A DNA stretch of 64,000 nt. Source: Armatimonadota bacterium (GTDB taxonomy: Bacteria; Armatimonadota; Fimbriimonadia; Fimbriimonadales; Fimbriimonadaceae). The DNA is taken from assembly GCA_018268355.1 (NCBI GenBank), contig JAFDWR010000001.1:153961-217960 (forward strand), read 5' to 3'. The notes below the pieces were generated by a model. That model did no database searches and was not told where the DNA came from. It saw only the letters and a list, made by a program, of their open reading frames with translations. The position numbers and the translations under genes were made by a program. Of this stretch, positions 24,732 through 32,322 are shown in pieces. Each line of letters opens with the position of its first letter. Within the stretch, counting starts at the first letter, position 1.

Positions 24732-27700
24732 TTAGCCGACGAGGAAGTCGGCGACCTTGAGCGGCAGCTCCTGACCCGGCTGCAGCGAGTCGCGCAGCAC
24801 CGGGCGATAAGGATAAACCCGCTCGGCGAGGAACGCGGGGTGGCCGTCGCGGTCCTGGACCACGCCCATCACGGTGGAATAGGGCGAACACACAATCGCT
24901 GCGCCATACCGCTGATAAGTCTCATCAAAGCAGGTCACGTTCAGCAGTCCGGTCTCATCCTCCAGGTCAAAAAAGACCACGCGCTTGCCCGTTCGCGTCG
25001 GTGGGAATCGAAGGCGAATCGGGTTGCCGACCACAAAGGCGCGCTGTCCCGGGGGAAGACGCTTCACCTGGTCGGCGGTGAGCCCGCCCCGCGAGAGCAC
25101 CCGTGCCCGCTCGAAGGCGACGAGGTGGTGCTCGATGTCCAGGCCGAGGAACTTGCGGTCATAGATCGCCCGCTCCTTTTGGGTGAAGTCGGCGACCGAA
25201 TCCATGAGGGCAGGGGCAGGGAATTCGAGGGGCAAGGTCCCCTCGTTCAGCCCCGCGAGGGTGTTCGCATAGTCGTCGGCGCGGTTGAGGTTCCAAAGCA
25301 GTGCGCGCCGGTTCGGAAAGAGCGAATCGAACCCGCCGCACAGGATGAGCGCCTCCAGCTCGTCGCGTGCGGGCCGGACCCGCGCCACAAAGTCGAAAAA
25401 CGACGTGAACGGCTGCTCGCGCACGATCCGCTGTTGGGTCGCTACGGAAAGGCCCGAAACCTGGGCGAGCCCAACCCGGATCCCCGCGTTGGGGAGGACG
25501 ACCTGGGGATCGGATTCCGCGCGGACATCCTCCACCGAGAACTTGACCTCGCTACGGCTCACGTCCACCCCGAGCACCTTCACCCCGCGCAGCCGTGCCT
25601 CGTTCGCAATCGTCGCGGGGCCATAGTAGCCGGCGGGTTGGGCGTTCAGCAGCGAGGCAAAGTACTCGGCGGGAAAGTGCTGCTGCAGCCAGATGCAGCG
25701 CAGTGAGATTTCGGCAAACGCGAGCGCGTGCCCTTGGGCAAAGCCGTAGCCGTTGAACCCCGCGACGAGGTCATAGACCTGCTCGGCAACCCCTTGGGCA
25801 AAGCCGTTGTCAACGATCTTCCGGACAACCTGGGTCTTGATCTGGGCGGCAAAGTCCTCGCGACGCTTCTTATAGATCGACTCACGGATGTCCTCCGATT
25901 CGCCCGAGGTGTAGCCGCCAAACCGCTGGAGAAGGAGGTCGACCTGCTCCTGAAAAACGACGATGCCATAGGTCTCGCCGAGGATGTCGCGCAGGGCAGG
26001 ATGGTCGAAGGTGAAGGGCTTACCACGCCGACGCGCGATCAGCTCGTTGATCTTCACCGCGCCGCCAACGCCGGGACGGATGCCCGCCTGGACCAGGCTC
26101 GCGTCGCGCAGGTTTTCGGTCTTGATGCGGATGTGGGCCTGGCGCATGGCGGGCGAGGCCGACTGGGGGATGCCGATCAGCTCGCCCGACCGCATTGCGG
26201 CATAGGTTTCGGGGACGTCCCAGGGTGCGGTTTCTACGCAGAAGTCCAGCTCCTGACGCCGGATCGCCTCCTCGGTCCCCGAGAGCACATCCTGACCGCG
26301 CAGGCAAAGGATGTCGAACTTGTCGAAGCACCGCTTCGCGCTCCGCTTGTCCCACTGCATGATCTTCACCGCCTCGATCGCGGAGTGGGTGACGGGAACA
26401 AAGTCGCAGACCGGCTCCCGCGAAACGACGACGCCGGAAGGGTGGGATCGCAGGTTGCGGGGGATGTCCATCATGCGCTCGGCGAGGCGGAACACCCAGC
26501 GGTACCGTTCGGGGTCGATGTTGCTCTGCCGTAGTTCGGGGCGGCTTTCGAGCGCGCGTTCGAGCCGGTCGGGCGAAACCCCGCCGTGGATTCGCTTGGC
26601 GAGGAACTTGATCTGCTCCTCGGGGATTCCGAGCACCTTTCCAACCTCGCGGATGATGCCCCGCGAGCAGTACGCGCCAACCGCGCCAACGGTGGCGACG
26701 TGGTCGTTGCCGTACTTCGTAACGAGATACTGGCGGACGTCCTCGCGGCGACCCGCCTCAAAGTCGATGTCGATGTCCGGCCTTTTGCTGCCGTCGGCGG
26801 GAAGAAATCGGTCGAAGTGGAGCCGGTGTTCGTGGGCGTCAATGCGCGAGAAGCCGAGCAGAAAGGAGACGACGGAATCGACAACCGACCCGCGCGCGCT
26901 GAAGTGAATCCCTTGCTCGCGGGCCTCGCGGCACATGTCCCAGGCAACGAGGAAGTGGCGCGAGAAGCCAAGCTTTTGAATTCGCAGCAGCTCGTGGTTC
27001 ATGCGGCGTCGAAAGGCGGCATCGGCGAGGGGGCGCAGGCGGCGCATTCCGGCGTAGACCTGCTCTCGCAGGAGGTCATCTTCGTCGGCGGCAAAGGGCG
27101 GAAGCTCGGACCGGGGCGGGAGGACGCTGTCGTCAACAAGATCGGCCACGCGCATCGTGGCGGCAACCCAGTCGGGCTGGTCGGCATAGACCTCGGCGAG
27201 CTGGGGATAGGTGCGGAAGGTCCTCTCGGCGTTGAGTGCGCGGCGGGGAAGGGCAAAGCCTTCGGGCTGGCCCTCGGCACGGCTCGGCTTTCGAGGTTCA
27301 AAGTCGTCAATCTCGATGAGGTGGTGAATGCAGGTCAGCACGTCTTGGACCGGGAAGTGCGCGTGCTCGGCGTGGGTGATCGGTCCGCCCGCGATGAGCT
27401 GAACTCCGGTGCGTTCGGCGAGCTCGATGAGGCCCGCTTCGACCGCCCTACGACCGGGGAGAAAGGTGCGCTCGACTTGGAGGAAGGTGTGGTCGCGGCC
27501 ATAGAGGTGGATCAGTCGGTCGAGCGTTTCCTTCGCGTGGTCGTGCTTTCGGCGCGCGAGGGCATGGTCGATGGGCGATCCCGCCCCGCCGCTGAGGCAG
27601 ATGAGGTCGTCGGTGTGGTGGGCGAGGCGTTCCCAGGTGGCGAGGGGGAAGAGGCGCGGCTCGCTGAGGTGGCATTCGGTGATGAGCCGGCTGAGGCTTC

Positions 27701-28247
27701 TCCAGCCCTTTTGGGTGCGCGCGACGAGGACGATTTCGCCCCCTTCGTCGAGTTCGAAGGTCGCTCCGAGGAGCGGTTTGACGCTCAGGCTGCGGGCGAT
27801 CTGGTCGAATTCGGCGGCACCGCTGAGCGAGAAGGGATCGGCGATGAGGGCCGCACTCGCGCCCGACCGCGCGGCATAGGCGGCGGCTTCTTCGGCGAGC
27901 ATGGCCCCGCGACCATAGGCATAGCCGCTCAGGATGTGGAGGGCGGCGAATCGGCGAGTCTGTGGGGTCTTGTAACCGGCGAGGCGTGGCTCGTGGACGT
28001 AGCCACAGGCGCGGGCGACCTTCTCATCGCGCAGCTTAGTGAGGCGGTCGGTCTTCTCGGCCTTGGGGTCCTCGGGATAGAGGACGGAAGTGCCGTGGGC
28101 GATCGCCTCGCCCAGCGAGGGCATTTCGTGGACCGCCGGCTTCTTGATGCCTGGTCGTCGCCGGAGCTCGCGGTAGGGCTCGAACTCCCACCACTTTCCG
28201 GCGATGCGGATTCGCTCTTCAGAGTCCAAGGGCGGCTTCCCACTCAC
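24732..28247 (-). CDS. dnaE2: error-prone DNA polymerase III alpha subunit DnaE2/ImuC
   Basis: 1171 residues. Polymerase catalytic Asp residues lie in PDIDIDFEAGRRED (Asp493, Asp495) and KRCFDKFDILCLRG. GYGFAQGHALAFAEISLRC and the OB fold near the C-terminus (VVFFDLEDETGLLNVTCFD) fit the DnaE2 branch. About 100 residues precede the PHP domain and contain RIRIAGKWWEFEPYRELRR, resembling the small WW-EPYRE-type proteins found in ImuB/ImuC loci. The PHP domain is degenerate (HILS at 104-107 and IADP at 135-138 replace the usual HxHS and TDH), so proofreading metal sites are missing. It performs mutagenic translesion synthesis with ImuB and starts 29 nt inside imuB. Confidence 0.95.
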   Translation of the reverse strand: MSGKPPLDSEERIRIAGKWWEFEPYRELRRRPGIKKPAVHEMPSLGEAIAHGTSVLYPEDPKAEKTDRLTKLRDEKVARACGYVHEPRLAGYKTPQTRRFAALHILSGYAYGRGAMLAEEAAAYAARSGASAALIADPFSLSGAAEFDQIARSLSVKPLLGATFELDEGGEIVLVARTQKGWRSLSRLITECHLSEPRLFPLATWERLAHHTDDLICLSGGAGSPIDHALARRKHDHAKETLDRLIHLYGRDHTFLQVERTFLPGRRAVEAGLIELAERTGVQLIAGGPITHAEHAHFPVQDVLTCIHHLIEIDDFEPRKPSRAEGQPEGFALPRRALNAERTFRTYPQLAEVYADQPDWVAATMRVADLVDDSVLPPRSELPPFAADEDDLLREQVYAGMRRLRPLADAAFRRRMNHELLRIQKLGFSRHFLVAWDMCREAREQGIHFSARGSVVDSVVSFLLGFSRIDAHEHRLHFDRFLPADGSKRPDIDIDFEAGRREDVRQYLVTKYGNDHVATVGAVGAYCSRGIIREVGKVLGIPEEQIKFLAKRIHGGVSPDRLERALESRPELRQSNIDPERYRWVFRLAERMMDIPRNLRSHPSGVVVSREPVCDFVPVTHSAIEAVKIMQWDKRSAKRCFDKFDILCLRGQDVLSGTEEAIRRQELDFCVETAPWDVPETYAAMRSGELIGIPQSASPAMRQAHIRIKTENLRDASLVQAGIRPGVGGAVKINELIARRRGKPFTFDHPALRDILGETYGIVVFQEQVDLLLQRFGGYTSGESEDIRESIYKKRREDFAAQIKTQVVRKIVDNGFAQGVAEQVYDLVAGFNGYGFAQGHALAFAEISLRCIWLQQHFPAEYFASLLNAQPAGYYGPATIANEARLRGVKVLGVDVSRSEVKFSVEDVRAESDPQVVLPNAGIRVGLAQVSGLSVATQQRIVREQPFTSFFDFVARVRPARDELEALILCGGFDSLFPNRRALLWNLNRADDYANTLAGLNEGTLPLEFPAPALMDSVADFTQKERAIYDRKFLGLDIEHHLVAFERARVLSRGGLTADQVKRLPPGQRAFVVGNPIRLRFPPTRTGKRVVFFDLEDETGLLNVTCFDETYQRYGAAIVCSPYSTVMGVVQDRDGHPAFLAERVYPYRPVLRDSLQPGQELPLKVADFLVG

Positions 28248-29385
28248 GCAGGGCTCTTTGTTCGCGCGGGATTTCGATCTGGGAGGCGACCCGGAGGGCG
28301 GTCTCGCCGAAGTTCCTTTGCACCGCGTTGACCGCCTCGCCGAAGCGGGTTTGTTTGGCCTCGTTGTCGAGCGATTGGTCGAGGTTGCGCTGGGTGGGTT
28401 CGACCTTCTGGAGGTCGCCTAGCCAGAGCCGCACTTCGGTGACGGGGTTGGGACCGGGGTCAAAGACGACGCTGCGCAGCGCGGCCAGGCATCCAAAGAC
28501 GGTGCTGATCGGCTTTTGGAGGGGCTTTTCGATGCGCTGGACCCCTTCGTCGGTCTCGATGAAGAGTGTCATCGCGCGGGCTTGCCGCTCTTGGGTGGTG
28601 AGCGCGTTCCCGGCGCGGTTGGCGAGGGTGCGCAGGGCGTCTTGGACCGCGAGCCCTTCGGTGGTGCCGCCCTCAAATCGGACGGAGAAGCCAAGGGAGC
28701 GTTCGGGATAGAGGGGGCGGATCGGCTCGTAGTGTTCGCCGCGGGCAAGGGTTGTCATGAGGAGGGCTGATTTTCCGAATTGGGCGTAGAGGATGTCGTC
28801 GGGGATGAGCGAGAGGTCGCCAACGGTGGGATAGCCGAGGAAGGCGAGCCTTTGGGTGTGTTCGGGGTCGAGATAAGGGAGGGCGCGAACCGAAAGCGGG
28901 TTGAGGAAGCCGTGGGGGTCTCGCCAGGGGCGGGTTCGGGCATCGTAGGCGGCGCCGAGCCTTGCGAGCCACTTACTCTCCGCGAGCCCCCAGCGGACGC
29001 GGGGCGGGTTCGCCCCGATGAAGCTCATCTGGAGCCTTTGGACAACGGTGAGGGCGATCGCGACGGGGTCGGGGTGGAGCGACAGGTCGAGGAAGGCGAC
29101 GTGTTGGTCTTCGGGCTCGATCGTGTTGGAGTAGCGGGGCAGGAGGTCGAGCCACCGACGCTGGTGGGTGCGAAAGGCGTCTTCGCGCCAGGCTTCGTGT
29201 TCGAGGCCCTCAACGAGGGCGCGGGCCTGCTTGAAGTCCATGCCGAGCTGGACACCGCGCGAGCGGGCGAGCGGGTTGGCGTCGAGGACTTGCTTTTGCC
29301 GGGTGATGACCCAGGGTCGATCGTCGGGACTGGGTGCGGCCCAAGAATAGAATCCGTCCAACGCTACGGCAAGCAAAGTCTGCAT
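28219..29385 (-). CDS. imuB: ImuB-like inactive Y-family polymerase
   Basis: 388 residues with a Y-family fold but lost catalytic acids. The N-terminal motif reads ALDGFYS in place of DMDAFF, and the SIDE motif is replaced by QHVAFLD (His95, Val96 at the Asp-Glu positions). VRWGLAESKWLARLGAAYDA and LPYLDPEHTQRLAFLGYPTVGDL correspond to palm/thumb segments. ImuB acts as a clamp-associated adaptor for ImuC in SOS mutagenesis. No imuA is seen upstream. A palindromic operator candidate lies 30-58 nt before the ATG. Confidence 0.9.
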   Translation of the reverse strand: MQTLLAVALDGFYSWAAPSPDDRPWVITRQKQVLDANPLARSRGVQLGMDFKQARALVEGLEHEAWREDAFRTHQRRWLDLLPRYSNTIEPEDQHVAFLDLSLHPDPVAIALTVVQRLQMSFIGANPPRVRWGLAESKWLARLGAAYDARTRPWRDPHGFLNPLSVRALPYLDPEHTQRLAFLGYPTVGDLSLIPDDILYAQFGKSALLMTTLARGEHYEPIRPLYPERSLGFSVRFEGGTTEGLAVQDALRTLANRAGNALTTQERQARAMTLFIETDEGVQRIEKPLQKPISTVFGCLAALRSVVFDPGPNPVTEVRLWLGDLQKVEPTQRNLDQSLDNEAKQTRFGEAVNAVQRNFGETALRVASQIEIPREQRALREWEAALGL

Positions 29386-29415
29386 GTCAGGCTTTATTAT
29401 CCGCGAAGTCGACGA

Positions 29416-29443
29416 AAAATAGTAGACAAGATTCTACTTTTTG
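29416..29443 (-). promoter_or_regulatory. palindromic operator candidate upstream of imuB (possible LexA box)
   Basis: A perfect inverted repeat AGTAGA-N6-TCTACT (29421-29438), extended by A4/T4 flanks with one mismatch. It overlaps a TACTAT hexamer that could be a -10. Position and partner genes suggest control by LexA or a similar SOS repressor, but the motif is not one of the well-known LexA boxes. Confidence 0.55.
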
Positions 29444-31576: not shown

Positions 31577-32020
31577 ATGTTAGCTCCGGTCTGGCTCTCC
31601 GCTGTCCTTCTTCTTGGTCAATCCAACGCCGAGATCGAATCCGTCATCAAGCAATACGCCCAAGCGGCGATCGACTACGATGCGGTCACGATTGAGCGTC
31701 TCTTCCTGCCCGAATACACCGAGATCTCACCGCTCGGCGAGGTCGATTCGCGCGAAAAGACGATTGGCTACTACCGCGTGCCCGCCGACAAGCGCCCCAA
31801 GATTAAGATCACCTTCGAGATCAAGGAGATGAACATCCGCTATCCAGCGAAGAACCTCGCGGTGGTGATCTTCCGCCAGGAGGTCACCCTCCACACGGGG
31901 GAGAAGCCGACGACGCTGCCGTTCCGGCAGACGTCGGTGGTGCGTCGGGAGCGCGATGGGTGGAAGTTCTTCTCGAACCACGTGACGGGGATTCGCGAGC
32001 GCAAAGCTATGGGCGGTTGA
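31577..32020 (+). CDS. exported NTF2-like (DUF4440/SnoaL-type) protein
   Basis: 147 residues. A hydrophobic leader (MLAPVWLSAVLLLGQSNA) precedes an NTF2-like cone: SVIKQYAQAAIDYDAVTIERLFLPEYTEI and the closing strands GWKFFSNHVTGIR. These domains bind small ligands or act as enzymes with few conserved residues; no catalytic pair is evident. Same strand as the AraC regulator upstream, and immediately followed by the palindrome/tandem-repeat region. Confidence 0.75.
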   Translation: MLAPVWLSAVLLLGQSNAEIESVIKQYAQAAIDYDAVTIERLFLPEYTEISPLGEVDSREKTIGYYRVPADKRPKIKITFEIKEMNIRYPAKNLAVVIFRQEVTLHTGEKPTTLPFRQTSVVRRERDGWKFFSNHVTGIRERKAMGG

Positions 32021-32089
32021 GGATGAGTGGGCCGAGGTTTTCACCCCATGTCTCTGCCCGCCAGTCCCCCGGAGTTGGTCGCGGCCTCA

Positions 32090-32149
32090 CCCCATGTCTC
32101 TGGGCGAAGGAGCGAAGCGACGAGGGCGAGGACGGGCAGAGACATGGGG
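32090..32149. repeat. 60-bp palindromic repeat element, copy A
   Basis: Terminal inverted repeats CCCCATGTCTCTG and CAGAGACATGGGG bracket a 34-bp core. The core recurs in inverted orientation at 33950-34011 with one or two differences. A further half copy of the left end lies at 32044-32060. Confidence 0.85.
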
Positions 32150-32264
32150 TGATGACCGGCAGAGACATGGGGTGATGACCGGCAGAGACATGGGGTGATG
32201 ACCGGCAGAGACATGGGGTGATGACCGGCAGAGACATGGGGTGATGACCGGCAGAGACATGAGG
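32150..32264. repeat. five 23-bp tandem repeat units
   Basis: Units start at 32150, 32173, 32196, 32219 and 32242. Each is TGATGACCGG plus CAGAGACATGGGG, the right terminal repeat of copy A; the last has one mismatch. It looks like slippage expansion from the end of the palindromic element. No unique spacers, so not a CRISPR. Confidence 0.92.
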
Positions 32265-32322
32265 TAGTGGGGGCAAAGCCCACTCGGTTCTCTCTCGCAG
32301 AGAGGGGACAAACAACCTCCAG

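Follow-up and report, generated by a model that had tools for sequence, protein, structure and literature searches.

Does the perfect palindrome ahead of imuB in this stretch of DNA (64,000 nucleotides, analysed whole and hereafter called the window) serve as a LexA operator, although it resembles none of the familiar SOS boxes? A sequence-only reading of the window had proposed so, pointing to AGTAGA-N6-TCTACT upstream of a mutasome-type polymerase gene. LexA is the classic case of a repressor whose regulon stays while the word it reads in DNA changes. We conclude that the palindrome is very probably the LexA operator that governs imuB-dnaE2, a translesion operon, in an Armatimonadota bacterium resembling the Fimbriimonadia. 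Because an isolated palindrome proves little, this reading is carried by comparison with relatives.

The palindrome and the imuB-dnaE2 operon

The palindrome, AGTAGACAAGATTCTACT, was found as proposed, with A/T flanks and 35 nt before the imuB start codon at position 29385 (Table 1). ImuB matches Y-family polymerase domains (Pfam and NCBIfam), and DnaE2 is a DnaE-type polymerase to which the error-prone subfamily is nearest (Pfam and NCBIfam). The two genes are adjacent on the minus strand, as in an ImuB-DnaE2 cassette; imuA could not be recognised next to imuB in those window reading frames that were inspected.

Table 1. Features of the imuB-dnaE2 region, in window coordinates
Feature	Position	Strand	Basis and remarks
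LexA operator (SOS box), predicted, AGTAGAC-AAGA-TTCTACT	29421..29438	.	Sequence, relatives, matrix; AGTAGAATCTTGTCTACT when read towards imuB
Possible -10 element GATAAT of the imuB promoter	29396..29401	-	By eye; 10 nt before ATG; promoter scan reported none
imuB (Y-family polymerase homologue), leading gene of the operon	28219..29385	-	Pfam, NCBIfam
dnaE2, error-prone DnaE polymerase	24732..28247	-	Pfam, NCBIfam; 29-base overlap with imuB

Palindromicity alone is not significant, since simple arithmetic predicts about 16 perfect 6-N6-6 palindromes of any kind per 64 kb. The home genome (2.7 Mb) contains the exact word AGTAGA-N6-TCTACT only once, at the window site. With up to two mismatches, the window holds 2 matches against 0.51 expected, and the home genome 55, fewer than the 224 of the reversed control; we therefore rejected the two-mismatch word as a regulon predictor without context. 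A chance palindrome would fit both the abundance of such palindromes and the lack of enrichment of the relaxed word in the genome, yet it is contradicted by the conservation of the site before imuB in relatives with about 30% protein identity, and by the list of target genes described below; we consider it negligible. A scoring matrix trained on sites of imuB, recA, dinB and a sigma-like gene, the home imuB and dinB sites included, gives the window site 24.5 and the best non-overlapping window position 9.5.

An overlap of the palindrome with a possible -10 had also been suggested, and this part was not supported: a sigma-70 scan reported no promoter at the home imuB. By eye, GATAAT is the better -10 candidate and would place the operator over the -35 region. 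At the imuB of many relatives, where the sequence is TATAATAGTAGACATATATG or similar, the -10, the operator and the start codon run together. These transcripts, and those of dinB, whose start lies in or beside the operator, are probably near-leaderless.

This arrangement raises the alternative that the site is functional for something other than LexA repression, for example as part of the promoter itself or in the service of a gene lying opposite imuB. In many relatives GTAGAC directly continues a TATAAT-like -10, and the silent promoter scan at the home imuB would suit such a role. In lexA promoters, however, GTAGAC precedes the -10 and lies behind the -35, and at recA, dinB and the gene of a sigma-like protein it is seen in either orientation and also as a dyad, unlike a promoter element. 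Beyond the window site, away from imuB, the listed frames overlap pnuC antisense, and none of the window frames starting there is a gene with family support. We regard this alternative as very improbable, and retain the operator reading.

Elsewhere in the window (32007-32315), tandem repeats with the unit SLPVITPCLCR/SSPHVSAGHHPM were observed in two minus-strand frames.

Conservation of the probable operator among relatives

The home genome was compared with 60 relatives, using 30 loci each for imuB, lexA, recA and dinB (matches present in 40, 58, 59 and 42 genomes, respectively). Half-sites, GTAGAC or GTCTAC, were counted from -150 to +60 of the gene start, with the expectation taken from the other parts of these loci. 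They were present in 28/30 lexA loci (42 occurrences versus 1.4 expected), 25/30 imuB loci (33 versus 1.8), 25/30 dinB loci (29 versus 2.25) and 16/30 recA loci (19 versus 1.7), 14 recA loci having none; all these counts are inflated by the recent common descent of the loci.

The half-sites often form a dyad. With GTAGA held fixed, the exact inverted partner TCTAC stood at N6 for 10 of 28 occurrences at recA and 4 of 27 at imuB, where a second peak of 4 was seen at N18, and the full GTAGA-N6-TCTAC was present in 14/30 dinB regions. This N6 spacing is that of the window site. Two recA promoters carry direct GTAGAC repeats; inverted repeats dominate overall. Sites at the sigma-like gene (GTAGACATATGTATAC and similar) gave a fuller consensus, AGTAGAC-N4-GTMTACT, and from the compared sequences we propose AGTAGAC-N4-GTCTACT as the refined consensus. 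When a matrix was trained with each gene left out in turn, the background 99th percentile was exceeded at 28/30 dinB, 24/30 sigma-like, 23/30 recA, 17/30 imuB, 12/30 mraZ and 9/30 lexA loci, with the reservation that training on GTAGAC-containing sites favours that word.

Exact sites were then tallied over whole genomes. GTAGAC-N5-TCTAC occurs at 90 places, spread over 42 of the 61 genomes. This raw count does not exceed the 97 places of the reversed pattern and was rejected as an enrichment signal; the positions, however, differ. Tallied genes account for 51/90 exact sites (recA 17, dinB 16, sigma-like gene 8, imuB 7, mraZ 3) and for 0/97 reversed ones. Restricted to imuB, lexA and recA, which were fixed in advance, the figure is 24/90 (recA 17, imuB 7, lexA 0), dinB, the sigma-like gene and mraZ having entered the tally after being noticed. 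The other 39 exact sites fall outside the tallied families, some of them inside long reading frames or by genes without a clear link to repair. Pfam matches among them include UvrA (twice), UvrD, two types of ribonucleotide reductase, ThyX, RmuC, a LigD phosphoesterase, a radical-SAM protein and DinB-family proteins. The sites are thus found at translesion polymerases and repair genes.

The home genome has two exact places, at imuB and at the start of a dinB-type polymerase. At the latter (L006:1501-1518), the GTG start codon lies inside the operator, AATAGTAGACGTGAATCTACC. The dinB loci L216-L245 likewise include polymerases with a GTG or ATG start in or beside the operator, which then also encodes the first residues.

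The proposal had named absence of the palindrome from the lexA and recA promoters as a refutation, and here the outcome was mixed. Neither promoter of the home genome has the exact palindrome, but the half-site AGTAGAC is present at both, at recA as AGTAGACACACATTCACG with a weak partner. Among the 61 genomes, an exact GTAGAC-N5-TCTAC lies at most 120 bp upstream of recA in 15, and at 253 and 299 bp in two more. lexA has none of the 90 exact sites. GTAGAC-N4-GTCT-type sites do occur there in another two Armatimonadota families.

lexA is the misfit in this pattern. The home promoter carries AGTAGAC as CAGTAGACAAAAAGAGTCTATACT, plus GTAGAGAACGAGCGTCTAC, forming two GTAGA-N9-TCTA(C/T) pairs. In the Fimbriimonadaceae, lexA promoters show GTAGAC half-sites in place of the N6 dyad, with GTAGAC just behind the -35 and, in six promoters, GTCTAC following 24 nt later. 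The lexA promoters of families f10 and f21 have GTAGAC-N4-GTCTNN. A single dyad spacing for all targets was rejected, because lexA of the Fimbriimonadaceae does not fit N6. The LexA of this family may tolerate two spacings, or it may use single strong half-sites at lexA.

LexA recognition helix and box co-variation

The home genome encodes one canonical LexA, the homologue that the operator proposal required, with DNA-binding and self-cleavage domains. A second LexA that might own the palindrome was not found, the other PF01726 and S24 matches being weak or partial. The home LexA shares 64% identity with the LexA of a Fimbriimonadaceae bacterium and 63% with the one of Chthonomonas sp. UBA2362; the placement of the home genome is drawn from these matches, the Fimbriimonadaceae being a family of the Armatimonadota. 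The home LexA aligns with E. coli LexA across the cleavage region, including the catalytic Ser and Lys, and keeps the Ala-Gly site. In the same alignment, the recognition helix reads SSLRGVTVHL, versus RSPNAAEEHL in E. coli.

We read 70 lexA loci, 30 from the order and 40 picked from other Armatimonadota families. GTAGAC or GTCTAC is present in the own promoter of 45 of 50 LexAs with an SLRG-type helix, SLRG(V/A)T, versus none of 20 with other helix types (Fisher p = 3e-13, which is overstated because the loci are related). Families f10 and f21 each contain both helix types, and the promoters are as expected from the helix. The word GTTTGC or GCAAAC is present in the own promoter of all 11 LexAs whose helix contains a Cys, of 3/9 with the S-STV type and of 5/50 with the SLRG type. 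Of the five SLRG exceptions to GTAGAC, one carries a perfect CCAGAC-AAAC-GTCTGG and one GCAGAC.

The misfit at lexA nourishes another reading, in which this is a damage operator read by a regulator other than LexA, LexA itself having another box. The Fimbriimonadaceae lexA promoters indeed lack the dyad spacing of imuB, recA and dinB, and LexA-independent damage regulators are reported from other bacteria. This reading is opposed by the phylum-wide agreement between box and LexA helix, mixed families included, by the GTAGAC-N4-GTCTNN of the f10 and f21 lexA promoters, and by the presence of the half-site in nearly all sampled lexA promoters. We consider it unlikely. The identification of the site as a LexA operator is supported by its conservation, its target genes and its co-variation with the helix, all of them features of sequence.

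Several observations concern LexA elsewhere in the phylum. A second box type, GTTTGC/GCAAAC, was noted in other families with Cys-helix LexAs, SSCTV and similar (L266-L271, L273, L275, L280, L281, L283), and by eye several of the Cys-helix lexA promoters read RAAC-N4-GTTTGC. The exception with the perfect palindrome (L274, family f27) has an SLRG-type LexA, SSLRGVTDHL; its promoter lacks GTAGAC and reads ACCAGAC-AAAC-GTCTGGT, possibly an intermediate box. One genome of 1.5 Mb (G028, 97% complete; L336, L337) lacks a LexA match, the exact operator and any GTAGAC ahead of dinB or recA, and perhaps represents a natural loss of the LexA system. The absence of its operator is weak evidence, because another genome without a LexA match (G020, 92% complete) keeps the operator at dinB.

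A possible wider regulon and comparison with known systems

Two candidate targets lie outside repair. The gene mraZ is the first of a division and cell-wall cluster. In the home genome, a LexA-like operator, AGTAGACAAAAGCCTACT, was observed about 430 bp upstream of it, with more half-sites behind (L003:1501-1960, from C1:136455), and in most mraZ loci of the same family (L317-L335) the best site lies about 256-303 bp upstream. By eye, the leader between operator and mraZ looks structured, with repeated GGGCGGGG and GC-rich arms; six loci were compared with Rfam, and no family was found between the two. We also considered that the operator might serve a divergent gene: in an unsystematic look no divergent family was recognised, and the gene preceding mraZ is, in several relatives, oriented towards it.

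The second is the sigma-like protein, of about 150 aa, with a helix-turn-helix resembling sigma-70 region 4. It is present in 43 of the 61 genomes and was not detected in the home genome at E <= 0.001. Its loci (L186-L215) have a GTAGAC half-site by the start in 23/30 cases; in L150, for instance, the frame starts 36 nt after the operator. A family name could not be assigned, the matches to sigma region 4 being sub-threshold.

LexA binding, repression and damage induction are expected here from what the LexA family does elsewhere. A LexA dimer would bind AGTAGAC-N4-GTCTACT-type sites through its unusual recognition helix, and the bound sites, overlapping the promoter or start of lexA, recA, imuB-dnaE2 and dinB, would block transcription. 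Further targets in single relatives would include uvrA, uvrD, ribonucleotide reductase and others. Upon DNA damage, RecA filaments would trigger self-cleavage of LexA, and the imuB-dnaE2 operon would be induced.

A broader picture can be drawn tentatively. In a large part of the Armatimonadota, the SOS regulon may have been rewired to AGTAGAC-N4-GTCTACT via a new SLRGVT helix, with sister LexAs using RAAC-N4-GTTTGC-type boxes; the regulon may reach beyond repair, through mraZ operators some 260-430 bp upstream and a sigma-like protein that might pass the damage response on in a second wave; and several operators may sit on near-leaderless starts. Taken jointly, we hold these propositions to be somewhat short of an even chance.

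The operator is a candidate for a further LexA word, and several helix types with at least two box types are found within one phylum. This diversity makes repressor rewiring testable by exchanging few helix residues, and the operator offers a way to predict SOS genes in the Armatimonadota.

The Bacillus-type LexA box is GAAC-N4-GTTC. Both it and the present operator are inverted repeats with a 4-base centre, and their consensus sequences share only the inner AC-N4-GT. The Bacillus-type system likewise has an autoregulated LexA with recA and translesion polymerase targets. It differs in its (C)GAAC half-site, versus GTAGAC here; the helix here is SLRGVT, versus the S-STV type of sister lineages.

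By 2021, 17 LexA motifs had been reported (PMC8565304, seen in part); the letters GTAG and the name Armatimonad are absent from the accessible portion of that article. In open-access full texts, in part among the top-ranked matches listed, we found no SOS study in Armatimonadota and no study of the GTAGAC box. The GTAGAC-type LexA box is probably new, short of proof.

The ImuA'/ImuB/DnaE2 mutasome cassette is under SOS control (as stated in the accessible part of PMC10421592). Here, too, imuB and dnaE2 adjoin under a damage-type operator; the operator differs, and imuA was not recognised beside imuB. The alphaproteobacterial LexA box is given as GTTC-N7-GTTC (same portion of PMC8565304), a direct repeat which shows that the geometry of LexA boxes varies; here inverted repeats dominate, with direct GTAGAC at the two recA promoters mentioned above. 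The E. coli box is given there as CTGT-N8-ACAG. As the sequence-only reading had recognised, the site belongs to neither the E. coli nor the Bacillus type, lacking both CTGT/ACAG and GAAC/GTTC half-sites. With E. coli, the present system shares a dyad of about 16 bp and a LexA homologue with a conserved cleavage region, whereas the half-site differs and the recognition helix reads RSPNAAEEHL there and SSLRGVTVHL here.
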